Origin: Methanomassiliicoccales archaeon LGM-RCC1
GTDB lineage: Archaea > Thermoplasmatota > Thermoplasmata > Methanomassiliicoccales > Methanomethylophilaceae
Reading direction: 5' to 3'
NCBI GenBank assembly: GCA_030168575.1
Contig: CP115555.1
Span: forward strand, 496,001-560,000
Length of the DNA stretch: 64,000 nt
Shown here: positions 8,573-25,240 of the stretch, in pieces
Layout: each line of letters starts with the position of its first letter
Position numbering within the stretch: position 1 is the stretch's first letter
Translations under genes and position numbers: made by a program
Notes under the pieces: model-generated
Told to the model about the DNA's origin: nothing
The model's database searches: none
The model's input: only the letters and a program-made list of their open reading frames with translations

Positions 8573-8696
8573 TGGAATGATTTCGATAGGGTATGAAATA
8601 CAAACACTCTTTGCTGTAATTGGAGGGTTTTGAGAGACGCATCAATAGGGTTCTTTGAATAGATTTATTTGTTAAATTCAATATTCCTTTTTGTTC

Positions 8697-9827
8697 ATGA
8701 GTTCGTTTAGATTTGCAGATTTGTTTGCCGGATGCGGGGGGCTCAGTCTTGGAATGGAACAAGCTGGATTCAAATTAGTATTTGCCAGTGACATAGATCC
8801 CGTCTGCTCTAACACATTCATAAAAAATCGTAACATTTCAGAAGAACAGATGTTTATAGGCGACATTGCAGATCTAAATGACCACATCGAGGACTACTCG
8901 GATTATCTCAAAGACATTGACCTAGTATGTGGTGGTCCGCCTTGTCAAGGTTTTTCAATGGCTAACCGTCAGCGTTTGATTGATGATCCCCGCAATATCC
9001 TATACAAAGAATATTTGAGATTCCTGGACCACGTTCGTCCCAAATATTTCATCATGGAAAATGTAAAAGGGATGTTGAACAAAATTGGAGAAATTTTCGA
9101 GGACATAAAAAACATTCTTGGAAATGAGTATGACGTATCTTACTCTGTTTTCAACGCCAAAGATTACGGTGTCCCCCAGAACAGGGAGAGGCTTATCGTT
9201 ATTGGAAATAGAATGGGTATATCTTCAGATTCAATCATCGCAGATATACGTTCCAAGTCAGATTCGTGCCCTCGTTTTGTTCTCCGCGATGCATTAAAAG
9301 GTCTCCCCCCATTGATGCCCAATAGACAGAAAAACAGCAGTTCCATTGAAAATGACGAAGTCGGATACTTTGCCAGAGATTACAAGTATGAAATGGACGA
9401 GTTCTATAGATTCATTAATGGGGACAGGAAGATTGAATCCCTATATAATCATAAGAACCGGTACAACAACAATCGCGACATTGAGATATTTACGAGGTTG
9501 CCCCAGGGGGCAAATTCGCTTCACCCTAGTATCAAAGATATAATGCCTTACGCATCACGTAACGACATTTTCAAGGACAAATATTTCAAACTCAAAGAGG
9601 ACGAAGTCTGCAAGACTATTACCTCCCACATGAAGTTTGATTGTAATATGTACATTCATCCCACACAAGCTAGAGGGCTATCCCCCCGTGAGGCCGCCCG
9701 CATCCAAACCTTCCCCGACGATTTTATCTTCTACGGGGCACAAAACAGTTGGTATAAGCAAGCTGGAAACGCCGTGCCAGTAAAATTGGCCCAAGCTATC
9801 GGAGAAGAGGTCATTAAACATTTATGA
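8697..9827 (+). CDS. DNA cytosine-5 methyltransferase 1
   Basis: 376 residues with every C5-methyltransferase landmark: FAGCGGLSLGMEQAG (motif I, AdoMet binding), GGPPCQGFSMANRQ (motif IV, catalytic Cys near residue 84), MENVKGM (motif VI), PQNRERLIVIG (motif VIII) and KQAGNAVPVKLA (motif X). The variable target-recognition region lies between VIII and X. The ATG at 8697 was chosen over the TTG at 8691. Its last codons overlap the ATG of the second methyltransferase (ATGA), so the two are coupled. Two neighbouring C5 enzymes with one nuclease suggest an asymmetric target whose strands are modified separately. Confidence 0.93.
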   Translation: MSSFRFADLFAGCGGLSLGMEQAGFKLVFASDIDPVCSNTFIKNRNISEEQMFIGDIADLNDHIEDYSDYLKDIDLVCGGPPCQGFSMANRQRLIDDPRNILYKEYLRFLDHVRPKYFIMENVKGMLNKIGEIFEDIKNILGNEYDVSYSVFNAKDYGVPQNRERLIVIGNRMGISSDSIIADIRSKSDSCPRFVLRDALKGLPPLMPNRQKNSSSIENDEVGYFARDYKYEMDEFYRFINGDRKIESLYNHKNRYNNNRDIEIFTRLPQGANSLHPSIKDIMPYASRNDIFKDKYFKLKEDEVCKTITSHMKFDCNMYIHPTQARGLSPREAARIQTFPDDFIFYGAQNSWYKQAGNAVPVKLAQAIGEEVIKHL

Positions 9828-10894
9828 AACAATTAGAACTTTTTTCCGGTGTGGGTGGTTTCCGCCAGGCCTCAGAATTATTGGAAATCGACTTCGGAGT
9901 GGAATTCAAAACTGTTGGGTATTCAGAGATAGACGTCAACGCTAAGAGGACATACAACAGTGTCTTCGATACAAATGGCGAGATGGATATCGGCGATATA
10001 GTTGAATTCAACAGCGACGAATCGAACATTAAGAGCATCCCAGATATCAGTTTGATAACAGGCGGATTTCCTTGTCAGCCATTCAGTATGATGGGTAAGC
10101 AGAAAGGTTTTGATGATGATCGTGGCAACCTTTTCTTCGAAATAATGAAAATCGTACGTATCAAGAAGCCCCGTTACATTCTTCTTGAAAACGTAAAAAA
10201 TCTCAAAACACACGATTCGGGAGATACCCTCAGCGTCATTATCAGCACTCTTGAATCCGCAAACTATAGGGTAAAAATGGATATTTTCAACACGTCTGAT
10301 TACGGTCTTGCTCAAACTCGCAATAGGATCTACATATTCGCGTATCCCAAATCTATGGGAGACATTGATTTTTCAAACGGTGTCGTGAAAACTACTTTCG
10401 ATAAAATTGAGAGAAAGACCTCGATAATGAAGCAAGATAACACACACGAGGTGCTTTCTAAGTCAGTTGATGCCAAATATTTCTTATCCGAAAGGATAAA
10501 ACCGACTATTCTCGCAAATGGATCGAAGAATTTCCAATCCCGTTCGGAGATCAATCAACTAATTGCCCGTCCGTTAACCGCTACAATGGCTAAAATGCAC
10601 AGGGCCTGCCAAGACAATTATTTCAGTACGGGATATATCGAATCAGACAATCCCGAGGAATATGTTAAAAAACAATTCTCCAAAGAAGAGTTGGCAAAAC
10701 AGCCAATTAGGAGAATAACTCCTAGAGAAGCTTTTGCTTTACAAGGTTTTGACTCTACTTACTTCGATAAGGTTGAAACATCGGGAGTTTCTGATTGTCA
10801 GTTATACAAACAAGCAGGAAATGCGGTCAGCGTAAACACCGTCTATGCAATATTATATTATCTTTTCGTGCATTTACATCTAACTGATGAGTGA
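9824..10894 (+). CDS. DNA cytosine-5 methyltransferase 2
   Basis: 356 residues with motif I LELFSGVGGFRQASE, motif IV GGFPCQPFSMMGKQKGF (catalytic Cys near residue 83), motif VI LLENVKNL, motif VIII AQTRNRIYIFA and motif X KQAGNAVSVNTV. It is too diverged from the first methyltransferase to be a recent duplicate, which fits two different target strands. It overlaps its upstream partner by 4 nt and its downstream nuclease by 8 nt; all three form one operon. Confidence 0.93.
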   Translation: MKQLELFSGVGGFRQASELLEIDFGVEFKTVGYSEIDVNAKRTYNSVFDTNGEMDIGDIVEFNSDESNIKSIPDISLITGGFPCQPFSMMGKQKGFDDDRGNLFFEIMKIVRIKKPRYILLENVKNLKTHDSGDTLSVIISTLESANYRVKMDIFNTSDYGLAQTRNRIYIFAYPKSMGDIDFSNGVVKTTFDKIERKTSIMKQDNTHEVLSKSVDAKYFLSERIKPTILANGSKNFQSRSEINQLIARPLTATMAKMHRACQDNYFSTGYIESDNPEEYVKKQFSKEELAKQPIRRITPREAFALQGFDSTYFDKVETSGVSDCQLYKQAGNAVSVNTVYAILYYLFVHLHLTDE

Positions 10895-11969
10895 TATTTC
10901 AAACCCTTCACAATCCATAGAAATCTACGACCAGATTATTGGCTTAAAAAAGCTGAGTGGCGCTGATCTAGGGCACGAGTCGACTCATCAAACCCATATC
11001 GGTTTAATCAATAGTATCTTTAAGTTTTTTGAGGATGACGATGAGGCCGAATCGATTCTGCTGTACGATCAGATGTCAAAAACACTTCCAGCGAGTTATC
11101 ACAGAATTCAGCCGTCTGGGGGAGGATCTGGACGTAGCATCGGTCTTCGTACAGGCATAAACCAAGATGCTAGTTTGCTGAAGACAATACGTGAAATCTG
11201 TCGGAAGAAGGATTGCGGATGGTATCTTATTTGGTTCAGTCTGATTGATAAAACGCCCGTTTTTATACTATTCGATTCGGAGTCGGATATATACAAATGT
11301 CTTGTTAAAAACGGAATTAACCCCGATAAACGCATCTCGAAGGGCATATCTTCTGACGATAATCGTTATAGGACGATTCTTTCCTGCATTAATCCGATTT
11401 TGACTGAGTATCTGGGCGGAATGGACAAAGAGTTGGAAATCGCTGTTCAGACAGGTAATCAAAAAACCCGCTTCACTCACAAGAACTACGTAAAAGCATC
11501 AAAGAGGATGCAAGAAATCGGTCGTGAAGGCGAGGAAATAATCAACCGGTATTTCCAAGAATTACGTACTCAGAAGAAAATAGATGAATACGAATGGAAG
11601 AACAAAGATGGTGAAAGCGGCGAACCGTATGACTTTATCGTAAAAAAATCGGATGAAATCGTATATCTCGACGTAAAGACCACGGGGTACGATTTCTCAC
11701 GCCCAATGGTCTTCAGTAAGCAGGAAATAGATTTTGTTGCCAATAGCGGTAGCAATTATGCCATTTACAGGGTATATCGCGGCAACAATGCCAAGTATTG
11801 CTTAAGAGTGTGTTCCAATTCAAAAGAGAATTTCCAGAAAATCGACACGATATTGAAGGAATGTGCTGAACGCTTGAAGTTGTTAACAACACTTGAAACA
11901 GCCAAACTTACCATAGATCCAAACAGCAACGACCTATTGTTCGACGAGGAAATCAATCTTGATTTTTGA
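10887..11969 (+). CDS. putative type II restriction endonuclease, PD-(D/E)XK fold
   Basis: 360 residues. The C-terminal part has GEPYDFIV followed by IVYLDVKTTG (residues about 243-264), the Asp ... Asp-x-Lys pattern of a PD-(D/E)XK nuclease, close to the DUF3883 type of domain. The following FSKQEIDFV matches that domain's last helix. The N-terminal 180 residues (with GGGSGRS and WYLIWFSL) are probably the DNA-recognition part. The gene overlaps the second methyltransferase by 8 nt, the usual arrangement of a restriction gene, so the modification enzymes are made first. Confidence 0.75.
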   Translation: MSDISNPSQSIEIYDQIIGLKKLSGADLGHESTHQTHIGLINSIFKFFEDDDEAESILLYDQMSKTLPASYHRIQPSGGGSGRSIGLRTGINQDASLLKTIREICRKKDCGWYLIWFSLIDKTPVFILFDSESDIYKCLVKNGINPDKRISKGISSDDNRYRTILSCINPILTEYLGGMDKELEIAVQTGNQKTRFTHKNYVKASKRMQEIGREGEEIINRYFQELRTQKKIDEYEWKNKDGESGEPYDFIVKKSDEIVYLDVKTTGYDFSRPMVFSKQEIDFVANSGSNYAIYRVYRGNNAKYCLRVCSNSKENFQKIDTILKECAERLKLLTTLETAKLTIDPNSNDLLFDEEINLDF

Positions 11970-12030
11970 TATCGGTTTATGATTTGAGAGACGTCATCGA
12001 TTCTATTGAACAATTGATTGAACTCGTCAT

Positions 12031-12603
12031 TCAAAACAATCTGGTCTGGTTGAAATCCTCTTCTCCAGATTCATAAACAATCCGGGAATCTGCTATAACC
12101 TCTTTGCTGACGCATACATTCCATGCACGCATCCGTGAATGCCATTTTTTGTGTCTAACAAACGCATCCCAGTCCAGTTGATAGATTGCTTTCAACCGGT
12201 AATTGCGATCCAGGCGGCATATCACCAGATAATCGAACATCTTCTCGTCTGGCACGTTTTCGTCCGGTGTATGGAGCCCGTAAATTACACCCGTGACTGA
12301 GCCGGTTGTGGTTTTGATACTGTACATTTTTCCGTTACGGCCGATGGCATCGACGTTTTTGGTTCCTGTAGCCGCAGGGGTTAGGTTGGGAAGTGTCGTA
12401 TCTTTTTTGTACTGTTCCATTACAAGATATTCTCCCAAATCCCCCACAACGTTATTGGTACGGATTACGTTACGTTCCTTCAAAAGAGCTATGCAGTCGC
12501 CGTAAGCTTCTATTAACTCCCCCGTTTCCAAATTCGAGAGATCAAGTGACATCGTAAATGTAAGCTGCAGCATTGTATTTAGCTGCGCTGCTAAAGAGGT
12601 CAC
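12031..12603 (-). CDS. DUF6998-like protein, putative nuclease-fold
   Basis: 190 residues from a GTG preceded by TAGGAT. The core reads GDLGEYLVMEQY, then TKNVDAIGRNGKMYSIKTTTG: a Glu, an Asp and a Lys spaced as in PD-(D/E)XK-like domains found near restriction genes. An alternative start is the ATG at 12573. It converges with the restriction endonuclease gene (61-bp gap) and may be an accessory nuclease or specificity factor. The function is inferred from fold-like motifs and place only. Confidence 0.55.
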   Translation of the reverse strand: MTSLAAQLNTMLQLTFTMSLDLSNLETGELIEAYGDCIALLKERNVIRTNNVVGDLGEYLVMEQYKKDTTLPNLTPAATGTKNVDAIGRNGKMYSIKTTTGSVTGVIYGLHTPDENVPDEKMFDYLVICRLDRNYRLKAIYQLDWDAFVRHKKWHSRMRAWNVCVSKEVIADSRIVYESGEEDFNQTRLF

Positions 12604-13090: not shown

Positions 13091-15658
13091 TCAATCCCAA
13101 CCCATTTTCGAGAATATCTCCCTGATATCTTCGTCAGATGAAGAGAGCACCCCCTCCAGTTTACCTGTCTCGATGGCCTCTTTCATTATGGTTTCCTTGA
13201 TCTTCAGACGATTGTAGATCTCATCATCCAATGATGTGGAATGCCCACTGCTGATGCCGTCCAACATCATCCCGCCGTAAGTCACCTTCATGAAGCGGTG
13301 CTGCGTGTACTGATCATCAGACAGACCCAATCTGTGTATGCGGTCCTTGGACTGGAGCAAGTGGACCAGATTATAGCTGTACTCGTAGTAAATGGTGTCA
13401 TGGCATACAGTATGTAATGAAACCGATTCTGCCAAAGTATGTGGATTCGTGATGAGCACAGAGAACCTGCCACCCTTGAAATCATTGATGATCCTGGAGC
13501 GCTCATGCACCGGGACACTACCATCGATGCTCTCACAGGAGATGCCCTCTGCGCCCAGAAGATCCTTGATGTTGTATATGGATTTCCTGAAGATGCACCA
13601 TACTATGACGGTTTTGCCCTCCCTGACGAGCATCGATACCTGATCTATGCATAATCTGGTCTTTGAGGTAACACCAATCTTTGAGATCACCGGAGCCAAA
13701 TCCTTAAGGGATGGCAGCAGCGTTGCCATGACATCCGGATTGTAGTCATCGGTTGATTCATCCTTGAAGCTCTGCACCAATTCGTCAGGGACCTCGTCCT
13801 TCAACAGCATACTCGGATCCGATTCCGCCTGGAGAAGGCGGATGATCCATGTCAGCGGATTGCCTGCACAGACTTCCTTTATCCTGCTGTAGAGCAGATT
13901 CTCCTCATTGGTTGATTCCACAAGTATCTGGATATCCGGATTCTCCGGCGGCACCCCCAAATCATCCTTACTCGTCCTGCAGTAGAACGGTTGGATCTTG
14001 TCATTGATGTCCTGTATCACAGATTGAGTGGGGTTCCGAAGAGAAGAAAGATCGTATTTGAAATATGAACCGTACTCCTTAGGGAAGAGGATATGCAGTA
14101 TGCTGTAGAGATCTGAATACGAATTGGGCATAGGAGTACCTGTGAGGACCAACGTGCGCGTCGATTCCTCCGCTACCATCCTGGATGCCGCAGACCTCTT
14201 GGTGCTCCAGCCCTTGATGTAGTGACCCTCATCGAAGACCAGCAGGCATTTTGATATGAGGTACTCATTGAGGGCGGATGCGTATTTCCAGAGGCTCTGA
14301 TAGTTTATCAGAACCATATCCACGGTGGCATAGCTGTTGAAGAATGCCGCCAGAGAAGATGTTCCCTGATGATCTCTGGAATCGAACACTTTGGGTTCCC
14401 GACCGAACATCGCCCTGTACTCTGAAATCCAGGAATCGAATGAGTTTAATGGGCACACCACCACCATGTTCAGAAGATTGGATGTCGACTTGAGGTAAGC
14501 TAATACCCCCAGGACAGATGCTGTCTTTCCCGATCCCGGTACTGAGAAGTTACCGGCCTTCATCATCGCATACATGAAGAATGAGTCCCACATCTGCTGA
14601 TCGTACAGATGCCTCACACTGGCCTCATCGACTGTCTTTTTGTATACGATGAACTCGTTCATGATGTTGTGAGCGCGGTTCTTGATATCAATCCCTAACT
14701 TCCTTCTCTTCTGTATGATGAGATCGTGTGAATTGATGTAATCCATCAACCTCTTGGAGACTGCTAACCTTATGTCCTTGTCATGGCAGTATGAGCCGAG
14801 GTTACTGATAATGCGCTGGAAGGAGATGTAATCTAGATCCTTGCGGAATACTATCTCCTTGTCGAATGATGATACGAACCTTTTGATATCAGACTTATAG
14901 ACGATTGCATAATTGGTTGGAGGATTGTCTAGACGGTTGTCGAGAACTATCGTGCTACCATCGAAATCCAGAAAGATGCAATTCTTCGTCTTATCGATCT
15001 CGTCTATCACAGCCACGCCGCCATGGGAATGGCTTTTAATCTCCTTCCAAACAACCTCTGAAGGTTTCTTGACGATCATTCCAGGCTTATCATCGTTCCA
15101 CATCCTCTCAAAATTCTCCTTATGTGAATCGAATGATTCGTATCTTCTGAAATCGAAGCTCTCGTAATTCTCTTCGATTGCCGCTGCTGTCTCATTATTG
15201 GATCCAAGCATCAGCATCGCATCGCCATCATAGCCCTCAGCATACCCCCATTTGTAATGGAAAATCCCCTTGCGAACTAGTGCAATCTTGATCTCGACCA
15301 CACCGGCTGAAATCAGATCCGTTAGAATCTGAAGAGAATCCTCCTCATCCAATGTGAGATCCTCGCGCAGACGGCTCAGGAACATGGGATCCAGATCCTC
15401 GAGACTCTTCTCTCCCTTGGTTATAGCATCGAAATCCTCTTTTTCGATGTCTTCAGACACGATGAGCCTATACTTCGAATCGGGCTTGTGTACGAACTCA
15501 ACGAGGCCCTGCGAGTATGCTGCCAAAGCTTTCGAAGAGAAATAGCAGGATACACGGTCGAACCTCTTTGCAGCTCTGAAGAACGGAATGTAGAAATCAT
15601 TCAGCAAATCCTTCTCGGAGGAGTCGTAGTATCCTTGCAACTCATCTAGTCTGGTCAT
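13091..15658 (-). CDS. PLD-domain SNF2-family helicase
   Basis: 855 residues. The N-terminal domain is PLD-like: FYIPFFRAAKRFDRVSCYFSS, an HxK pair in FHYKWG (near residue 133) and GSNNETA. A SNF2-type helicase follows, with Walker A GSGKTAS (near 373), DEGH (near 474), LTGTPMPNSYSDL, and a C-terminal RecA domain ending in QSKDRIHRLG (near 769). Such enzymes translocate on double-stranded DNA and occur in restriction and anti-phage systems. It is the last gene of a three-gene minus-strand operon and overlaps the ParB-like gene by 17 nt. It is neither DrmA nor a type III Res subunit by layout. Confidence 0.85.
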   Translation of the reverse strand: MTRLDELQGYYDSSEKDLLNDFYIPFFRAAKRFDRVSCYFSSKALAAYSQGLVEFVHKPDSKYRLIVSEDIEKEDFDAITKGEKSLEDLDPMFLSRLREDLTLDEEDSLQILTDLISAGVVEIKIALVRKGIFHYKWGYAEGYDGDAMLMLGSNNETAAAIEENYESFDFRRYESFDSHKENFERMWNDDKPGMIVKKPSEVVWKEIKSHSHGGVAVIDEIDKTKNCIFLDFDGSTIVLDNRLDNPPTNYAIVYKSDIKRFVSSFDKEIVFRKDLDYISFQRIISNLGSYCHDKDIRLAVSKRLMDYINSHDLIIQKRRKLGIDIKNRAHNIMNEFIVYKKTVDEASVRHLYDQQMWDSFFMYAMMKAGNFSVPGSGKTASVLGVLAYLKSTSNLLNMVVVCPLNSFDSWISEYRAMFGREPKVFDSRDHQGTSSLAAFFNSYATVDMVLINYQSLWKYASALNEYLISKCLLVFDEGHYIKGWSTKRSAASRMVAEESTRTLVLTGTPMPNSYSDLYSILHILFPKEYGSYFKYDLSSLRNPTQSVIQDINDKIQPFYCRTSKDDLGVPPENPDIQILVESTNEENLLYSRIKEVCAGNPLTWIIRLLQAESDPSMLLKDEVPDELVQSFKDESTDDYNPDVMATLLPSLKDLAPVISKIGVTSKTRLCIDQVSMLVREGKTVIVWCIFRKSIYNIKDLLGAEGISCESIDGSVPVHERSRIINDFKGGRFSVLITNPHTLAESVSLHTVCHDTIYYEYSYNLVHLLQSKDRIHRLGLSDDQYTQHRFMKVTYGGMMLDGISSGHSTSLDDEIYNRLKIKETIMKEAIETGKLEGVLSSSDEDIREIFSKMGWD

Positions 15659-16856
15659 TCAGCATCCCTAGACGTTCCTCTACCATCTTCTTGAGCTCTT
15701 CTAGCTTGTATCTTAGGTCGTCCTTTTGCTCGACGATCTCTATGGATGGTTTATCGATAGCTGAAATCTTCATCATCGCATTATCAACGAGGTTGAGCGG
15801 TGCATCTTTGGCATTCATGATAGAGATGCGGTCGAACTCAGAGTTCACCGTTTCCTCAATCTTTCTGGCTAGCTCCTCATCGTTCCTTATCTGCTCCGAT
15901 ATGACTGTCTGTGTGATCGGCTCGTCTATAGATGCTATCTTTTCAATGACCTCATCCACTATTTCCTGGGTGGCGGTAAGGTACTCCTCAGATAGCTCGC
16001 TCTCAGCAATTTTCTTAAATTTCCTAATCTGGCGAGTCATGTCGCCTGAACCGAAGAGAAGAGACGCGAACATATCCTTCTTGTACCTCTCCTTCACCTC
16101 ATCATCTGGTAGCTTCTTCAAAACGCTATGAATCTCATAAAGCGGCCCATTTATGTTGAGATTCGATGCTATGTAGAACTGCTTAGGGGCATTGACGAAT
16201 TCCAGGAAATCCACCATAAGATTGGCAATCTCCATCAGCTTACGAACCTCAGCCTCTTTCTGGTCGATGCAACGTGCGTACTCTTTAGGTTCGAAAGAAT
16301 GCCCATCCTCAATCAGATCCCTGTAAATCCCCACCAACTTGTTTATAGGGTCGTAGTCCACCTGCTTCTCCGTTCCATGCTGGAGTGTGAGCTCTAGCGA
16401 CTTTATCGCCTTCTTCCCGGTCTCGTCATCATATGTGTTGTCAAGGATGACAGCATCGAAGAAGCTGAACTTGGGATCCTCGAGGCTGAGCTCCCTCAGG
16501 CATGTGAAACGACGGTTACCATCGATGATCCTGCCGTCCCTTAGGACGACACCAGACTCCCTCTGTTCATACAGCTTGATATTGTTCTTAGTCTTCTTGA
16601 ATGCATCCAGATTGCTCTCTTTGATCATATCGTGGATGATGTTGTTGTACTCGGGATTGTTGATGTCTATCGCGCCATTTTCCGACTCGTACTTGCTCAT
16701 CCATGTGGCTATCCTATCATTCTGATCATTGTAGTAGAGCTGGTCCAGCTTAATCCTGTAGACCTGATAGGCCTTGGTCTGACCATCGATGGTCAATTTC
16801 TTGGAAAGATCGGTCTCTTGAACAATGTTCGAATTGGATAAATCTAGCTCGGTCAT
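15642..16856 (-). CDS. ParB/sulfiredoxin-fold protein
   Basis: 404 residues. An N-terminal VYRIKLDQLYYNDQNDRIA strand leads to VVLRDGRIIDGNRRFTCLRE (residues about 100-122), the signature loop of the ParB/DndB-like nucleotide-binding fold. The middle is helical and the last 60 residues are strongly charged and coiled-coil-like. It is the middle gene of the operon, one base after the MutH-like gene and overlapping the helicase gene. ParB-fold proteins in defence loci are CTPases/ATPases or DNA nickases; which applies here is not visible. Confidence 0.7.
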   Translation of the reverse strand: MTELDLSNSNIVQETDLSKKLTIDGQTKAYQVYRIKLDQLYYNDQNDRIATWMSKYESENGAIDINNPEYNNIIHDMIKESNLDAFKKTKNNIKLYEQRESGVVLRDGRIIDGNRRFTCLRELSLEDPKFSFFDAVILDNTYDDETGKKAIKSLELTLQHGTEKQVDYDPINKLVGIYRDLIEDGHSFEPKEYARCIDQKEAEVRKLMEIANLMVDFLEFVNAPKQFYIASNLNINGPLYEIHSVLKKLPDDEVKERYKKDMFASLLFGSGDMTRQIRKFKKIAESELSEEYLTATQEIVDEVIEKIASIDEPITQTVISEQIRNDEELARKIEETVNSEFDRISIMNAKDAPLNLVDNAMMKISAIDKPSIEIVEQKDDLRYKLEELKKMVEERLGMLNDQTR

Positions 16857-16857
16857 T

Positions 16858-19536
16858 TTATGCCCCTGTCATTTCATCTACGTACGCTTGATCGTCACGG
16901 AATATCTTCTCAGTGTACTTGCAATACCTTAAAGGCTTATGTTCATTTCTAAGCTCCCTGCCCAGATTTAAGCCGTATAGCTCATCGATTTTATCTACGA
17001 TATCGATTTCGTAATCACTGTCATCATTGCCGAGGGCGGTCAGCGTCATATCTACTATCGCCCCGTTGCGATTGAACTTCTCCATGCTGGTGAACACCTT
17101 ATGCTTGTGGATCTCACCGCACCTGAGGTTCCTGGAGAGACAGAGGATGTTCTCGTAGAACTCATCCTCGAACCCCTGTTCCTCCAGTTCATGCTGGAAT
17201 CCGCAATTATGGAGGAAATCCAATGTGAAGTAGCTGTCAGGTTCGAGGAAGGATGCTGCCGCAGACTGATAATCTGCAATCATGTCGTCTGTGACACCTG
17301 CTCCGTACAATTTGTCCGCAGTGACATATGTGTCCCCCTCGATGAGGTAATACCTGCGACTTTCCAGATAATCGTTGAATATGTTCATTACTGATTTGTT
17401 GTCCCTCATCTCATCGGTGATTGTCACGAAATCCTTGGAGAACAGTTCCTTATCGACGGCCTCACGTAACGACTGGTAGGCATCCGGATAAATTGAACCT
17501 TGAGCACTTCTGTACCCCAATCTATTAAGGTTATCGATGTTGTAATACGGATCGTTCTTAGTCTTATGTGTGCTCTTATCATCTGATTTTATGTCGAACT
17601 TGGATTCAGCCTTGAAAAACAGCTTACGGGCCACATCATGAGACATAATCCTGGGAGGACTCATCATCGTCGAGAGGTATTCGATTACCTCGTCTGAGAA
17701 CTTCGGCAGATTCATGTCGAAGTAATCCCCATTGGAGTACTGGGAGAACTTAGTCATGAGGGATCTTATGGATTGCTCCTTCATTCCGTATCTTTCTGAG
17801 TACATCCTGCAGAAATCGTTCTTGTTTATGCGACCGGTCTCCTGCAACAACGCTGTTATCTGATCAGGTATCGTCGCCTGACCGAAGCATACAGACGGAG
17901 ATGTCGGCAACACCATGTTCAATGAAGTAAGGATGCTGTTGTGCTTGTACTTACTCAAGAGCATGTACATCTCCTGCTCGTTCCTTATGTCATACTCATC
18001 ACAGATGGCCTTGGAATCGATGATTATCAATTGAGCAGAGATATAGGAATCGCTATACCTCCCCAGATCCAATCTCTTGAGGAACTCTGTGACCTGCTTC
18101 TCATCGAATGGGTAATACCTGACAGTCGTTGAATCCAAACGCAGGACATGGGTTCCGGGTTTGTCAGAACATAGCTTTATGTCCGCACTGTTCATCTTAC
18201 AGAGGGGAGCGTTTTTGAGACAATTCTTGTTTACGAACTCCTTGCAGAGCCTGCTGACCTCTGATATGTGCTTGGGTTTGCCAATTTTGGAAAGAACATA
18301 TGCGATGATGGAATCGTCGGAGAGATTCAATTTCCCATCCTCCAACTCGATATTGTTGTACATCATCGCGCGGAGCTTCCTCTTGAAGGTGTCAGTCTTC
18401 GTCGGATCGTTCAGCAGATCCTCCGGTTCCTTCCATCCCTTAGGATGCATGAGCTCAAGATAACGATAGGTCTCCTCGTCCACAGAATACAGGTCCATGA
18501 ACTGCTTTGCCTTGAACTTGTACAAACTGAAATCTGATGCCAATTCATCCTCTTTCGGTCTTGCCGAGAAGTACGCACGAATCCTCAACAATTCATCATC
18601 GACGTCTTTGTATCTTGACTCAAATGCCTCTGAATCCAAAGCGAAATAATCCCTCACGTTCTCCGGTGCCTTTTCCACCATCTTATGTACGGTCAGGACC
18701 CTGAGGGACAACCCATTGGAAGTACGTTCTACGACCCCTCTCTCCAGAAGCGATGCAATAACGCGGTCATAACTCTCATTGAACATCAATTTCGAATCTA
18801 AATTCTTCTTCAGCTTGAATGCGACTACCGGTCCATCTGCTTCTGATAGGACGCCTATGATGTTCTGTTCCAAAGTCTTGGGTGCCTCTTTGTTTCCAGT
18901 CGAAGACGGTGGTTGGATAACAGGAAGTGAGGATATGACCTTCCCAACATAATCGTTGTTCAACCAAAAGCTGTACTTCCTCTCTGCAGCGTTCTGTCCA
19001 TGAGGTCTCACATGTACCATTAGGTTGGCCGTCTTGGGGATGAAAGCATCGATATTGCCATCAACGATCTTCTGCCTGGTATCGTTCCATACGAACTCAG
19101 CCTTCTGGAGATCATCATCTGGCATTGACCAGAAAGCCGCATTCTTAAACGAGAAATCCCCGTCCTCCGAATCATCAGATGATGTAAACACCAAGAAAAG
19201 GAACCTACTGGTAATCTGCTTATAGAATTCACTCTGCTGCCATGACGAGTTGGTCATCTCCTCAAAATCAAATGCCGGAAATGACATACTCTCCTTGGGA
19301 GGAGAATCATCCTTCACACGGACGGTTCTTATGTAGGTTCCACTGGTTATGAGAGCGTAGTATAGATCTGGCGATGACTTCAACATCCTATCCGCCAAGG
19401 ACCTGAAATACCCTTTAGACTGCGGATTGAGATGCTCCTTGAGGATGGCCTCTATCTCAGAAGAAGACTTGCCGACGAATTGCCTGAGAAAATCTATTAT
19501 CGCCTCTTCAACTTCGATGCCACTTCCACCCATCAA
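16858..19536 (-). CDS. MutH/Sau3AI-like protein with winged-helix repeats
   Basis: 892 residues, ending in TAA. Residues about 60-190 match the MutH/Sau3AI nuclease domain pattern: PKESMSFPAFDFEEM, SWQQSEFYKQ, RFLFLVFTSS, FWSMPDDDL and FVWNDTRQKIVDG. At the place where active members carry Glu-x-Lys (as in G-I-E-L-K-T) this one reads G-T-Y-I-R-T, so the catalytic pair looks lost. The remaining 650 residues appear to be several winged-helix-like modules, probably for DNA or protein contacts. It is the first gene of the operon and divergent from vsr. Confidence 0.6.
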   Translation of the reverse strand: MMGGSGIEVEEAIIDFLRQFVGKSSSEIEAILKEHLNPQSKGYFRSLADRMLKSSPDLYYALITSGTYIRTVRVKDDSPPKESMSFPAFDFEEMTNSSWQQSEFYKQITSRFLFLVFTSSDDSEDGDFSFKNAAFWSMPDDDLQKAEFVWNDTRQKIVDGNIDAFIPKTANLMVHVRPHGQNAAERKYSFWLNNDYVGKVISSLPVIQPPSSTGNKEAPKTLEQNIIGVLSEADGPVVAFKLKKNLDSKLMFNESYDRVIASLLERGVVERTSNGLSLRVLTVHKMVEKAPENVRDYFALDSEAFESRYKDVDDELLRIRAYFSARPKEDELASDFSLYKFKAKQFMDLYSVDEETYRYLELMHPKGWKEPEDLLNDPTKTDTFKRKLRAMMYNNIELEDGKLNLSDDSIIAYVLSKIGKPKHISEVSRLCKEFVNKNCLKNAPLCKMNSADIKLCSDKPGTHVLRLDSTTVRYYPFDEKQVTEFLKRLDLGRYSDSYISAQLIIIDSKAICDEYDIRNEQEMYMLLSKYKHNSILTSLNMVLPTSPSVCFGQATIPDQITALLQETGRINKNDFCRMYSERYGMKEQSIRSLMTKFSQYSNGDYFDMNLPKFSDEVIEYLSTMMSPPRIMSHDVARKLFFKAESKFDIKSDDKSTHKTKNDPYYNIDNLNRLGYRSAQGSIYPDAYQSLREAVDKELFSKDFVTITDEMRDNKSVMNIFNDYLESRRYYLIEGDTYVTADKLYGAGVTDDMIADYQSAAASFLEPDSYFTLDFLHNCGFQHELEEQGFEDEFYENILCLSRNLRCGEIHKHKVFTSMEKFNRNGAIVDMTLTALGNDDSDYEIDIVDKIDELYGLNLGRELRNEHKPLRYCKYTEKIFRDDQAYVDEMTGA

Positions 19537-19546
19537 TTCGTAATAG

Positions 19547-19592
19547 TTGTCGGATTATAAACTAAGCATCCTAATCCTGAACCAATGATATA
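19547..19592. promoter_or_regulatory. divergent promoter region between MutH-like gene and vsr
   Basis: The 78-bp gap holds an AT-rich TATA-like TTTATAA on the minus strand (near 19553-19561), serving the MutH-like operon, and a plus-strand ATGATATACC (near 19583-19592), serving vsr. Both operons of the island can therefore be set from one shared regulatory region. Confidence 0.4.
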
Positions 19593-19614
19593 CCTGTAAA
19601 CCAATCTGAGAAGT

Positions 19615-20070
19615 ATGAGGACTGCGCCGAAGCCCTTGAATAAGAACGTCACGAAATCCATGAAAGGAAACGTTCGCAAAGACACCAAACCGGAGCTTAT
19701 CCTCCGCAAAGGCCTCAGGGATGCAGGTTACAGCGGCTACCGCCTGCAGTGGAAGGTTCCTGGAAGGCCGGATATCTGCTATCCGGGCAGGAAGATCGCC
19801 ATATTCGTTAACGGATGCTTTTGGCACAGATGCCCCAAGTGCAATCTGCCCGTGCCCACGAACAACAGGGAATACTGGGAATCCAAGTTCGAGGCTAACA
19901 AGATCCGTGATGCTGATAAGATATCGGCATTGGAATCATCGGGATGGACAGTGATGGTTGTATGGGAATGCGACCTCAAAAAGAATCTGGAATCGCAGAT
20001 TGAACGTATCGCAGAACTGATTCTCTCAAAGGATGATGAAAAGAAACGTGGCAAACGTAAGAAGGATTAA
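19615..20070 (+). CDS. vsr: Vsr-type very short patch repair endonuclease
   Basis: 151 residues with the Vsr hallmarks: TKPELILRKGL, WKVPGRPDICYP (metal-binding Asp near residue 52), IAIFVNGCFWHRCP and a final SGWTVMVVWECDL. Vsr nicks next to T:G mismatches that arise when 5-methylcytosine deaminates, so it protects a genome that carries a C5-methylated site. It lies 25 bp upstream of a cytosine methyltransferase, the classical partnership. It ends with TAA. Confidence 0.92.
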   Translation: MRTAPKPLNKNVTKSMKGNVRKDTKPELILRKGLRDAGYSGYRLQWKVPGRPDICYPGRKIAIFVNGCFWHRCPKCNLPVPTNNREYWESKFEANKIRDADKISALESSGWTVMVVWECDLKKNLESQIERIAELILSKDDEKKRGKRKKD

Positions 20071-20095
20071 TATCGGTAGATTGGATCCCGCTAAC

Positions 20096-21322
20096 ATGGA
20101 ATCCTGCATCCGCGTAGTCGAATTGTTCGCTGGTGTCGGGGGATTCCGTGTCGGGTTAGAAAGAGCCTCTTCAGAGAGGTTCAAGACCATCTGGGCTAAT
20201 CAATGGGAGCCAAAATCCAAGATGCAGGCCGCCTTCACATGCTATGAATATCATTACGGAAACTCTGGCTCCAAGAATGTGAACGAGGACATCTCTAAAG
20301 TCAGGGACGATGTCCCAAAAGACTTCGAACTCCTAGTAGGCGGTTTCCCCTGTCAGGATTATTCCGTGGCTTCCACACATGCAAAAGGCATCCAAGGGAA
20401 AAAGGGAGTCCTGTGGTGGGACCTATACCACATCGTTCAAAAGCACCACCCAAGATACATTCTCTTAGAGAACGTGGATCGCCTCCTCAAATCACCAGTG
20501 GACAAAAGAGGAAGGGACTTCGGGGTAATCCTCAGATGCCTTTCGGACGAGGGGTACTACGTGGAATGGCGCGTCATCAACGCTAATGACTACGGAATGG
20601 TTCAGAGACGCAGGAGGACATTCATATTCGCCTGCAGAGAGAACCATCCGTTCATCAAAACAGTGAGAGACATCGACTTGAAGGATCTGGTCCTTTCGAA
20701 GGGTTATTTCCAATCCGTGTTCCCGGTCAAAGGTCTGAAAGACCTGGAGAAGATCGGCTCTTACGAAATCAAAAAATCCTACAAAGGCCTGGTCGATGTA
20801 TCCGACAGGTTCGAAGGACGTTTCTACAACTCCGGTGTGATGTCAAAGGGAAACATCTACACATGCGAGACCGTTCCAAAGTATCGCAAGAAGAAGGGCG
20901 AGGGATTACTATCAACCGTCGTAGATAGCTGCGATGACCCTGCATACTTGCAGGAGGATTATATCGACAAATGGATTGAGATGAAGGGCAGTAAACGCTT
21001 GCTGAGAACGAACAAGAAAACAGGCATCCAATATTACTATTCCGAAGGCTCCATTCCTTTCCCGGACCCGCTGGACAAGCCTGGAAGAACCATGCTCACA
21101 TCCGAAGGGACAAGAAACCGCAGTTCTCACGTAATAAGGGATCCAGGCAACGGCATGCTTCGTGTGCTGACTCCCGAAGAGTGCGAGAAACTGAATGGCT
21201 TCGAGCCTGGTTGGACCTTCATGCTATCGAAACGCCAGAGATATTTCACAATGGGTAATGCGCTTGTTGTGGATCTCATCGAGAGAATGGGTAAGGGCAT
21301 CCTAAGTCTCGAAGACATGTGA
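20096..21322 (+). CDS. DNA cytosine-5 methyltransferase 3
   Basis: 408 residues from the ATG at 20096; the frame opens earlier (20033) but that would overlap vsr. Motif [18 protein letters not shown], motif [13 protein letters not shown] (catalytic Cys near residue 85), motif [11 protein letters not shown], motif [15 protein letters not shown] and a C-terminal [14 protein letters not shown] are visible. It resembles the methyltransferases found in large multi-gene restriction systems with Vsr. Together with the divergent helicase, ParB-like and MutH-like genes it probably provides the self-marking of that system. Confidence 0.92.
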
Positions 21323-21414
21323 TGAATCGACCTCTTTCGACTTTATCACGGTTCGAATTACATGCAAACACGAGGGTTATAGGATTCTTATCCTTCCACT
21401 ACCATACCCTCTCC

Positions 21415-22770
21415 ATGTCCGAGATCAGATGCCCCCGCTGCGGAACGTTCTTCCAGATAGACGAATCCGATTACGGAAAGATAGTCAGCCAGGTGCGCGA
21501 CGCGGAGTTCTCCAAGGAGATGGAGTACCGCGTGCAGCATTACGAGAAGGAGAAGGCCGATGCCGTATCTATCACCAAAGCTGAAGAGGAGAAGAGGCAC
21601 GCCGACCTCCTCAACAAGACGAAGGAGCAGCTGAACGGGGAGATAGCCTCCAGGGACAGGGAGATAGCCGATCTCAGGTCCAGGATCGAGAAGTTCGAAC
21701 TGGAGAAAACCATCGCCGTGAAGGATGCCGAGGATGCCAAAGAGAAGGAGATCTCCGATCTGAAATCCAAACAATCCGGATGGGAGAGCGAGAAGAAACT
21801 CGCCCTCTCCGAAGCGGAGAACAGGAAGATAGAGGAACTCAACTCCAAGGAGAAAGAGATCTCAGAACTCAAAGCGAAGATCGACCAAGTCGAGATGTCA
21901 AACAGACTCGAGCAGGACAACATCAGGAACCAATACGAGTCGCAGCTCAAAGCGAAGGACGAGGAGGTCCAGTTCTACAAGGATTTCAAAGCGAAACAGA
22001 GCACCAAGATGATTGGGGAATCCCTTGAGATCTTCTGCATGAACGAGTTCAACAAGCTGCGCCCCACCGCATTCCAGAACGCGTACTTCGAGAAGGACAA
22101 CGAGGTGTCCGGCTCTGGATCCAAAGGGGATTTCATCTTCAGGGATTCCGAGGACGGCGTCGAGTACATCAGCATAATGTTCGAGATGAAGAACGAGGCC
22201 GATCAGACCGCCACCAAGCACCGCAACGAGGACTTCTTCAGGGAACTCGATAAGGACCGCACCGAGAAGGGATGCGAATACGCCGTCCTGGTCACCATGC
22301 TGGAACCGGACAACGAACTGTACAACACCGGCATAGTGGACGTCTCCTACAGATACCCCAAGATGTACGTCATAAGGCCGCAGTTCTTCATCCCCATGAT
22401 CACCCTCCTGCGCAACGCATCGAGGAACTCCCTCCAATACAAGCAGGAGCTCATGGACATCAGGAACCAGAATCTCGACATCACCCATTTCGAGGAGAAC
22501 ATGAACGCCTTCAAGGACGGCTTCGAGAGGAACTACCGTTTGGCGAGCGAGAGGTTCGCCAAGGCCATAGATGAGATCGACAAGACCATCGACCACCTGC
22601 AGAAGGTGAAGGAGGGTCTGATAGGATCAGAGAGGAACCTAAGACTGGCGAACGACAAGGCCCAGGACCTGTCGATAAAGAAGCTGACCAAGAACAATCC
22701 CACTATGGCGAAGAAATTCGCGGATCTGAAGGACGATAATGAGCAGAAATCAGACGAACGATCGAATTGA
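21415..22770 (+). CDS. DUF2130 family protein
   Basis: 451 residues from the ATG at 21415. It begins with a zinc-ribbon-like [10 protein letters not shown], followed by about 180 residues of Lys/Glu-rich coiled coil and then the DUF2130 core with [39 protein letters not shown] and [11 protein letters not shown]. The core has a restriction-endonuclease-like arrangement (Asp, then Glu-x-Lys in FEMKNE). Members are widespread and poorly characterised. It follows the methyltransferase by 92 bp and has higher GC than the methylase genes, so it need not belong to the restriction system. Confidence 0.85.
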
Positions 22771-24151: not shown

Positions 24152-24361
24152 TCAGTCCGCTCTCTGAAGCTCCTTTTCTGCAAGGTAACGGACATCCCTG
24201 ACGAGGTGCTCTTTGATATCGAGATCGACGATAGCCTCATCAATGGACATTTTGCGAATTCTGACTATCGAAGCTACTGAATGTGCATAGTTCTCAATCA
24301 AAATATCATCGATTTCCTGCTCCCTAAGCTCCTCAGCATAGCTCTTAGTCAATTCATCCAT
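24152..24361 (-). CDS. tandem 69-residue helical protein, copy 1
   Basis: 69 residues from the ATG at 24361, which follows a conserved CGATAGT box. The layout is an amphipathic helix (TKSYAEELREQEIDD), a second helix with SVASIVRIRKMSIDEAI, and a C-terminal helix with VRDVRYLAEKELQRAD. The charged, all-helical form and the tandem copies suggest a small regulatory or antitoxin-like protein, but no family is recognised. Residue 63 is Lys (AAG), the site that is TAG in copy 2. Confidence 0.55.
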   Translation of the reverse strand: MDELTKSYAEELREQEIDDILIENYAHSVASIVRIRKMSIDEAIVDLDIKEHLVRDVRYLAEKELQRAD

Positions 24362-24390
24362 ACTATCGATTGAACAGTGCCCTATCCAAT

Positions 24391-24400
24391 TATTATAATC
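24391..24400 (-). promoter_or_regulatory. TATA box of tandem copy 1
   Basis: On the minus strand a GATTATAATA element lies about 30 nt before the ATG at 24361, after a conserved GGCAAG. The same box is found before the other two copies. Confidence 0.45.
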
Positions 24401-24515
24401 TTGCCTGTGCCGTTCCTCGTACTTCAAGAAATCAGTACATGCCCTGGAAGACAAAGGGTAGACGCATGATGGATGATAATAACGCGCGATTATGGAGTCG
24501 ATGATGTATGTCTAA

Positions 24516-24725
24516 TCAATCCGCTTTCTGAAGCTCCTACTCGGCGAGGAAACGAACGTCCCTGATGAGATACTCCTTGATGTTGAGCTTTACAAGGGCT
24601 TCGTCAATGGAGATGTTGTCGCTTCTGACCAACGCTACGACAAACTTAGCATCCTCTTCGATCAGGGCATCTTCCACTGCCTGCTCCAAGAGTTCCTCAG
24701 CGTAGCTCTTCACCGTTTCCTCCAT
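24516..24725 (-). CDS. tandem 69-residue helical protein, copy 2, with in-frame TAG
   Basis: Read through the TAG at 24537-24539 this gene is 210 nt, exactly the length of its two siblings, and ends in the same way: LAE-x-ELQKAD then TGA. The TAG is codon 63. Siblings have AAG (Lys) there, so one base change separates them. The six codons after the TAG are as conserved as the rest, and the TGA is at the same place. Loss of six residues by a fresh nonsense mutation is possible; amber readthrough would restore the full protein with pyrrolysine, a lysine derivative, at the lysine site. The start ATG at 24725 is supported by the repeated promoter. Confidence 0.6.
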
Positions 24726-24753
24726 ACTATCGATTAACAATCCGCTTGTCTTA

Positions 24754-24763
24754 ATTTTATAAT
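24754..24763 (-). promoter_or_regulatory. TATA box of tandem copy 2
   Basis: On the minus strand a GATTATAAAA-type element lies about 30 nt before the ATG at 24725, preceded by GGGCAA. It is conserved in all three copies. Confidence 0.5.
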
Positions 24764-24897
24764 CTTGCCCTTGCCGTTCCTTGCACTTCAAGAAATCGGT
24801 ACATTCTCTAGTTGGCAAACCGGGTAGACAATATGTACAATGCAAAGACCTATGTAGATGATGAGAACACCCTGATTTTGGTGTCGATGATATCTGA

Positions 24898-25107
24898 TCA
24901 ATCCCCTTTCTGAAGCTCCTTCTCGGCGAGGAAACGGATGTCTTTCTCTAATGATGGATCGATACTCAGATTGCTCATAGCCTCGTCTATCGAAATGTTA
25001 TTCCTCTTAACCATGAAAACGATATTCTTAGCCTGAACATCGATCTGCGCATCCTCGATGGCCTGCTCCCTGAGTTCCTCAGCGAAACTCTTTGCCGTTT
25101 CCTCCAT
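24898..25107 (-). CDS. tandem 69-residue helical protein, copy 3
   Basis: 69 residues: MEETAKSFAEELREQAIED, a central helix NIVFMVKRNNISIDEAM and a closing RFLAEKELQKGD. It is closest to copy 2 in its first and last segments. Lys63 is AAG. The ATG at 25107 lies directly after the conserved CGATAGT box. As with the other copies, the function is unknown. Confidence 0.55.
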   Translation of the reverse strand: MEETAKSFAEELREQAIEDAQIDVQAKNIVFMVKRNNISIDEAMSNLSIDPSLEKDIRFLAEKELQKGD

Positions 25108-25135
25108 ACTATCGATTTATCATCCGCATGTCTCA

Positions 25136-25145
25136 GTTTTATAAT
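25136..25145 (-). promoter_or_regulatory. TATA box of tandem copy 3
   Basis: On the minus strand GATTATAAAA lies about 30 nt before the ATG at 25107, preceded by GAGCAA. It has the same layout as the boxes of copies 1 and 2, which supports independent transcription of each copy. Confidence 0.5.
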
Positions 25146-25240
25146 CTTGCTCGTGCCGTTCCTGGTAACGATAAGGTTAGATCGCTCGCTAACTAAACAC
25201 TGAAAAACCAACCGTTCCCGACTTCAAAGAGAAGGATCGA

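Follow-up and report, generated by a model that had tools for sequence, protein, structure and literature searches.

Among described systems, PbeABCD joins a nuclease of the PLD (HKD) type, PbeA, to a superfamily 2 (SF2) helicase and, according to excerpts of two papers, has a CxC ABC ATPase and DndE at its core (PMC6459918, PMC10853773); the excerpt of the second adds that some of these CxC-ABC ATPase-DndE systems have C5 methylases (PMC10853773). BREX-related type 2 systems carry an HKD nuclease N-terminally on a Swi2/Snf2 helicase, together with an N6 methylase, a DUF499 ATPase and DUF3780, and a restriction-modification logic has been proposed for them (excerpt of PMC12839542). Here we describe a five-gene island in a 64,000-nucleotide stretch of the archaeon Methanomassiliicoccales archaeon LGM-RCC1 (contig CP115555.1, positions 496,001 to 560,000, hereafter the window), which shares features with both and with the Sau3AI restriction-modification system. 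On balance we find it probable that the island is a restriction-modification system of the Sau3AI family whose endonuclease has given way to a dead sensor, a ParB-fold protein and a PLD-SNF2 cutter.

An earlier interpretation made from the DNA letters alone (the sequence-only reading) had placed five genes in two divergent operons between 13091 and 21322, and the list of open reading frames (ORFs) of the window bears out all five ORFs, their coordinates and the 78-bp gap between the operons. The features are as follows.

13091..15658, minus strand: PLD(HKD)-SNF2 translocase, 855 amino acids (aa); candidate motor and nuclease
15642..16856, minus strand: ParB/Srx-fold protein, 404 aa; predicted nucleotide-gated DNA clamp
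16858..19536, minus strand: dead MutH/Sau3AI C-domain (about aa 9-205) followed by a winged-helix array (about aa 217-892); predicted site sensor
19537..19614, no strand: divergent intergenic region of 78 bp between both operons, from the ORF coordinates
19615..20070, plus strand: Vsr mismatch endonuclease, 151 aa, by its TIGR00632 match
20033..21322, plus strand: C5 cytosine methyltransferase, 429 aa, Sau3AI-type with GATC as predicted target, by its PF00145 match and its clade

The listed start codon of the MutH-like ORF is TTG, with an ATG immediately next to it. The host genome measures 1.66 Mb, and its genes for Cdc6, TiaS and an A/V-type ATPase mark it as archaeal.

The C-terminal half of Sau3AI is an allosteric DNA-binding (effector) domain, and by alignment the MutH-like domain of the window corresponds to this non-catalytic half. 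Residues 9-196 align with the Sau3AI model NF040973 over its positions 241-469 (8.5e-32), and the matches in the PDB are likewise to the C-terminal half of Sau3AI (7xm0, 2reu and 4pxg, 1.6e-14 to 8.2e-13, that to 4pxg spanning 317-426 of 509); the Pfam MutH match was below threshold (18.8 versus 23 bits). We aligned 60 MutH-fold domains from the surveyed loci described below, classed by domain order into 24 first domains, 24 second domains and 12 single domains. The catalytic D/E/K residues were present in 24/24 first domains of the full-length two-domain Sau3AI homologues (L007 and L008 being one protein counted via two loci), and the complete triad was found in none of the 24 second domains and none of the 12 single-domain proteins. 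In the window the three columns read A/Y/R, and the MutH-domain proteins fused to helix-turn-helix (HTH) regions in L039, L044 and L072 are likewise dead by this alignment. The MutH-like domain was rejected as a cutter on these grounds; since it lacks the catalytic residues, it can serve for recognition only. The sequence-only reading had let the MutH-like and PLD domains share recognition or cutting, and of this we keep recognition by the former and candidate cutting by the latter, and drop cutting by the MutH-like domain. Residues ~217-892 were modelled as a run of winged helices, that is, repeated units of an HTH and a hairpin. The model of the 892-aa protein had a mean predicted local distance difference test (pLDDT) score of 74.6 and a predicted template modelling score (pTM) of 0.46, and its winged-helix part alone was used; the MutH region was modelled poorly, most aligned homologues carrying other domains there, and the Foldseek matches of the model were generic winged helices.

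With the MutH-like domain lacking its catalytic residues, the PLD domain on the SNF2 motor is the likely nuclease of the island, judged from conserved motifs. Pfam recognised the motor (SNF2-rel_dom 7.5e-22, Helicase_C 9.7e-11) and, below threshold, the PLD domain (PLDc_2 8.5e-5), and PbeA models matched at up to 1.9e-55, best over the PLD part. Within the PLD motifs HxK and GSxNxT, the H, K, G, S, N and T were invariant in 35/35 aligned domains, the third letter of GSxN being variable. The SNF2 motifs are intact in the alignment, including Walker A GSGKT, LTGTP and QSxDRIHRLGL.

The third minus-strand protein found no match in Pfam or PADLOC model scans, and by its structural model it is a protein of ParB-N/Srx fold. 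An AlphaFold2 model built on 47 sequences reached a pLDDT of 91.7, and the first five Foldseek hits were chains of ParB-N and Spo0J (E 2.0e-3 to 2.4e-2), with ParB-N 5k5d at the top (2.0e-3) and Spo0J 1vz0 among them. In VIA-align comparisons, Z ranged from 8 to 10.6 over ParB, Noc, KorB and sulfiredoxin: KorB 8qa9 gave Z 10.6 (root-mean-square deviation 3.8 over 198 residues), Caulobacter ParB 7bm8 Z 9.4 (1.8 over 93) and sulfiredoxin Z 8.9. ParB proteins bind nucleotide through two motifs, the GERR box and the ENxxR..NPxE box. In the 47 sequences, DGxRR and E..Q positions are invariant or almost so, and a weak hhalign alignment to Spo0J/Noc (pairwise E 0.0025, probability 12%) pairs IIDGNRRF with IIAGERRY and an E..Q..NP-type stretch with the EN.QR..NP box. 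Clamp behaviour is predicted for this protein from its modelled fold.

On the plus strand, Vsr scored 108.9 bits with TIGR00632 (NCBIfam cut-off 97.85) and is 64% identical to a Vsr adjoining a full Sau3AI homologue in a genome of the same genus, and the methylase matched DNA_methylase PF00145 at 1.6e-61. A quick tree was made of 34 C5 methylases, leaving out pieces shorter than 205 aa. All 30 methylases linked to the module (the ParB-like gene and its partners) or to Sau3AI homologues formed one clade with a Shimodaira-Hasegawa-like approximate likelihood ratio (SH-aLRT) of 98, and two other methylases of the window and two of L093 fell outside it. One of the linked endonucleases, that of L042, closely resembles Sau3AI, scoring 834.5 bits along its full length. 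Because of this kinship of methylase and endonuclease, the target of the island's methylase is probably GATC.

An alignment of the ParB-like protein was searched against 84,980 genomes and found 149 relatives, of which 80 were kept, giving 79 loci (numbered with L). These were typed with purpose-built profiles on mechanical gene calls, which can miss genes, and counts over all loci include loci cut by contig ends. Class I, with a PLD-SNF2 partner, comprised 33 loci including the window; class II, with an SNF2 partner without PLD, 21; and class III, with a long ParB and no SNF2 seen, 23. Three further loci, in which no SNF2 gene was seen, were left unclassed. For linkage we omitted the window, the class IV loci L018, L033 and L089, and the plasmid loci L009-L017. 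A C5 methylase then lay within 10 kb in 20/32 class I loci versus 3/44 loci of classes II and III (p 3.0e-7), a MutH-family protein in 21/32 versus 2/44 (p 7.3e-9) and Vsr in 8/32 versus 0/44 (p 5.6e-4), all Fisher values that treat the loci as independent and ignore kinship, though the loci are related. Among loci with at least 6 kb on both sides, again with the window omitted, the methylase counts were 17/24 versus 3/22 (p 1.1e-4). Class II by itself had a C5 methylase within 10 kb in 2/21 loci, and every class I locus with a methylase had a MutH-family protein nearby (21/21, window included). By gene neighbourhood, the PLD-bearing form is thus strongly linked to Sau3AI-type methylase systems and MutH-family proteins. 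The sequence-only reading had named regular occurrence of the three minus-strand genes without the Vsr-methylase pair as evidence against itself, and this is partly what we find: the core of HTH protein, ParB-like protein and SNF2 regularly occurs without that pair, on Enterococcus plasmids and in class II, whereas the PLD-bearing form stays linked to the methylase.

The complete set of dead MutH, ParB-like protein, PLD-SNF2, C5 methylase and Vsr was found in the window and in five bacterial loci, namely L039 (Planomicrobium), L044 (Cytobacillus), L050 (Planococcus), L057 (Lentilactobacillus) and L013 (a Lactiplantibacillus plantarum plasmid), so that the co-occurrence of the five families that the sequence-only reading had proposed to look for does exist elsewhere. 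Loci with a dead MutH and no full Sau3AI homologue within 10 kb are called dead-only here; one of them, L060, has no Vsr. A search of the host genome at E<=0.001 found no second Sau3AI relative, and no catalytic one was found in 5/5 dead-only bacterial genomes (L039, L044, L050, L057 and L060), where the sole match to a full Sau3AI homologue was one C-terminal stretch (query residues 220-489), as the dead protein of the locus would give. Archaeal relatives present a different arrangement. The ParB family was found in 3/292 genomes of the phylum, the window's and two of the same family, and both other loci have the HTH protein, ParB, PLD-SNF2, a full two-domain Sau3AI homologue, C5 methylase and Vsr. 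In a search of 60 genomes of relatives, seven, the window's included, matched the MutH-like protein; the other six hold two-domain Sau3AI homologues, with Vsr in 5/6 in the stretches read. Intact Sau3AI-type versions occur in the same genus and order; the window seems to have exchanged the intact enzyme for its own dead half, joined to a winged-helix array, a direction of change that we infer.

A multi-component, methylation-controlled restriction system in which a methylase marks self and a helicase translocates, as the sequence-only reading had it, remains the best reading of the genes, and we suggest the following order of events for it. The C5 methyltransferase would mark GATC in self DNA, and Vsr would repair the T:G mismatches arising from deaminated marks. 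The dead MutH C-domain, a presumed remnant of the Sau3AI endonuclease, would find unmodified GATC together with the winged-helix array, and its binding would recruit or load the ParB-fold protein as a nucleotide-gated clamp. The PLD-SNF2 protein would then be recruited as an ATP-driven translocase of double-stranded DNA and move on the DNA, and its PLD domain would cut what is unmarked, thereby defending the cell.

The same genes could instead belong to two systems lying side by side: what remains of a Sau3AI-type system after loss of its endonuclease, namely an orphan methylase and Vsr, and an independent ParB-SNF2 module with a borrowed MutH-type DNA-binding domain. The ParB-SNF2 core does occur without a methylase in many loci, and such sites collect defence genes, as seen in a pair of C5 methylases at 8691-10894 of the window and in a PLD-ResIII-DUF3427 helicase of G196, a genome of the same species. 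Yet single dead MutH proteins occur with the PLD form only (0/44 in classes II and III), a C5 methylase lies within 10 kb in six of the seven dead-only loci, and dead-only and full-Sau3AI methylases are interleaved in the tree (7 changes against a shuffled mean of 7.3), and we therefore regard mere adjacency as unlikely. A closer relation is assumed if the module serves a Sau3AI-type system as a backup or abortive-infection arm, triggered once the primary endonuclease is inhibited or missing, with the backup alone retained in the window. This would suit the 14 loci that have a full Sau3AI homologue and the module with no separate dead MutH protein, the three in which a dead MutH protein and a full homologue occur together, and the full homologues of both other archaeal loci. 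It fits poorly with six dead-only loci (L013, L039, L044, L050, L057 and the window) that keep methylase and Vsr and have no endonuclease in the locus: because the genomes of L039, L044, L050, L057, L060 and the window showed none elsewhere, there would be nothing to back up where the module was retained, and we consider a backup role improbable.

Two further readings assign the biochemical roles differently. The ParB-fold protein might itself be the nuclease or a nucleotidase, with the PLD domain as an accessory, and nuclease and NTPase activities of ParB/Srx domains are indeed discussed in excerpts of PMC5512222 and PMC12839542. The structural match to KorB/ParB clamps, spanning ~200 residues, argues against this, and we hold it to be highly improbable; that no other nuclease domain was recognised in the class II proteins scanned fits either role of ParB. 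Least probable of all, in our view, is a modification-dependent, type IV-like restriction in which incoming DNA would be recognised by the dead MutH domain through its methylated GATC sites. Genes for AspBHI-type readers or nucleases do lie near some modules (L012, L035, L040), and the island is near a protein (12031-12603) that matches PADLOC methyl-directed endonuclease models, but the host would then be at risk from a methylase of that specificity in its own locus.

Several observations weigh against our preferred reading, that of a Sau3AI-family system with its endonuclease replaced. In many loci the module has a full Sau3AI homologue next to it and may thus have been added to that enzyme without substituting for it. 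The dead-only locus L071 has neither a local methylase nor Vsr, and of eight tested class I genomes lacking a methylase at the locus, five have no full-length relative of the methylase, so the module can occur where the mark is absent; the other three, all Exiguobacterium, have a full-length relative elsewhere (55-59% identity), and in class II such a relative was found in none of the eight genomes tested. The ParB tree gives three independent PLD-methylase pairs on starred branches, with the same direction 1.8 times on average and the opposite direction never, which is not significant. In the PLD domain of the window, a Gly follows HxK where all 34 other rows have Asp. Finally, GATC shows little depletion in the host DNA of the window (0.86, ranking sixth among 16 palindromes). 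It has the lowest value of the palindromes in the island (0.64); avoidance was considered as evidence for the methylation target and, being weak, was left unused.

Looking beyond the island, the ParB-SNF2 pair is, by gene content, a module with exchangeable partners, of which the island is one form, since these partners vary between MutH proteins, HTH proteins with RNA polymerase alpha C-terminal domain (alpha-CTD) repeats and sigma-70 region 4, and type III mod/res. The engine is common in Bacillota. Among plasmid records with a match, 48/60 and 52/66 were Enterococcus, whose plasmids have an HTH protein, the ParB-like protein and an SNF2 without PLD, and neither Vsr nor methylase. In L015:5119-13109 and L016:5002-13016, on Enterococcus and Lactococcus plasmids, type III mod/res is directly followed by the ParB-fold and SNF2 genes. 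Nine bacterial HTH partners without a MutH domain were scanned, drawn from all three classes, and five carry alpha-CTD repeats and sigma-70 region 4 (two or three repeats; L020:7275-9968, L026:5260-7977, L040:5983-9681, L048:5606-8719 and L062:11206-14151), as if promoter recognition by RNA polymerase were mimicked; a sixth, from Enterococcus, has sigma-70 region 4 alone. A more general model would be that a dead enzyme reads unmethylated GATC and loads a ParB-fold clamp, which licenses SNF2-PLD, and that ParB-SNF2 is a general, unnamed defence engine accepting dead MutH, alpha-CTD/sigma-4 arrays or type III mod/res as sensors; this we put forward as a tentative and rather doubtful extension.

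The survey also turned up other arrangements. In the class III locus L062:9473-14642, the one locus of 23 scanned, a ParB relative of ~575 aa with an N-terminal HEPN_Swt1 domain is followed by the alpha-CTD/sigma-4 HTH protein and a HIRAN protein, and this looks like an RNase-armed cousin. AspBHI-type modification-reader domains lie near the module at L012:17263-18375, L035:14019-16307 and L040:13668-14972, and in two of the three they are combined with HNH or Mrr nuclease domains.

As for the borders of the island, G196 aligns with the window at 96% from 21385 rightward and showed no match further left in the compared stretches, so the right edge lies at most ~63 bp past the methylase stop. 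No ParB family match was found in G196, nor any match to the left 5.2 kb of the window in a search run without a control, and the variable region therefore probably extends further left than the island. In the mechanical ORF list, a DUF2130 ORF (21319-22770) overlaps the methylase by 4 nt, and its protein has a D..ExK-like stretch and is possibly an unrecognised PD-(D/E)XK nuclease. It was considered as a sixth component for this overlap and this stretch and was rejected as chromosomal backbone: G196 has the gene at the same place without the island, it was not seen around the methylases of archaeal relatives in the stretches read, and among the other loci examined it was present in L093 only. 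Beside the same gene in G196, at the place that the island occupies in the window, is the PLD-ResIII-DUF3427 helicase (L122:6634-9480), and this second PLD helicase suggests that the site is a hotspot for defence genes. To the left of the island, a second cluster (8691-12603) comprises the two C5 methylases together with a NOV_C-domain protein; its remaining member, the methyl-directed endonuclease match, is encoded on the opposite strand. To the right, short ORFs and DNA stretches at 24152-24845 and 24885-25160 form imperfect repeats, which are repeated in G196 too.

A dead sensor and ParB-fold protein coupled to a motor with a different nuclease suggest an unusual way of discriminating self from foreign DNA. 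If our reading is true, a restriction enzyme has been turned into a pure sensor and its cutting handed to an ATP-driven machine, and ParB-type proteins enter the discrimination of self and non-self DNA. The dead-only genomes, which keep methylase and Vsr and in which no catalytic Sau3AI endonuclease was found, make the question directly testable. It would concern a widespread engine, present in Bacillota and in dozens of Enterococcus plasmid records, with a ParB protein that Pfam and PADLOC models do not match.

The sequence-only reading knew of no named system with exactly this gene set, and none came up in our full-text searches of the openly licensed literature, which are not proof of absence; the combination is not described in the excerpts of PMC3710099, PMC5512222 and PMC12458937. 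Its statement that the DISARM genes drmA and drmB are missing also held for the ten proteins of the region that were scanned (best 25 rows per protein), where the DISARM cross-matches among the matches listed were of the helicase to DrmD and of the methylase to DrmMII, and it was likewise right that the island has no type III mod/res pair. The type III restriction-modification loci with ParB and SNF2 genes (Enterococcus DA9 and the Lactococcus plasmids, L015 and L016) share the ParB-fold and SNF2 families with the island at 31-35% identity, and differ in having mod/res on the sensor and cutter side and an SNF2 without PLD. With BREX-related type 2 systems, as far as the excerpt describes them, the island has in common the fusion of HKD nuclease and Swi2/Snf2 helicase and the proposed restriction-modification logic, whereas their N6 methylase, DUF499 and DUF3780 were not seen among the ten region proteins. 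With PbeABCD the island shares a PbeA-like nuclease of the PLD (HKD) type joined to an SF2 helicase; no CxC ABC ATPase (PbeC), DndE-like PbeD or other Pbe protein was matched among those ten, and the island has the ParB-fold protein and the dead MutH sensor instead. The Sau3AI type II system has the same methylase clade, Vsr and C-terminal MutH-fold domain, and the island differs from it in lacking the catalytic MutH domain (D..ExK) and in adding a ParB-fold protein, a PLD-SNF2 motor and a winged-helix array.

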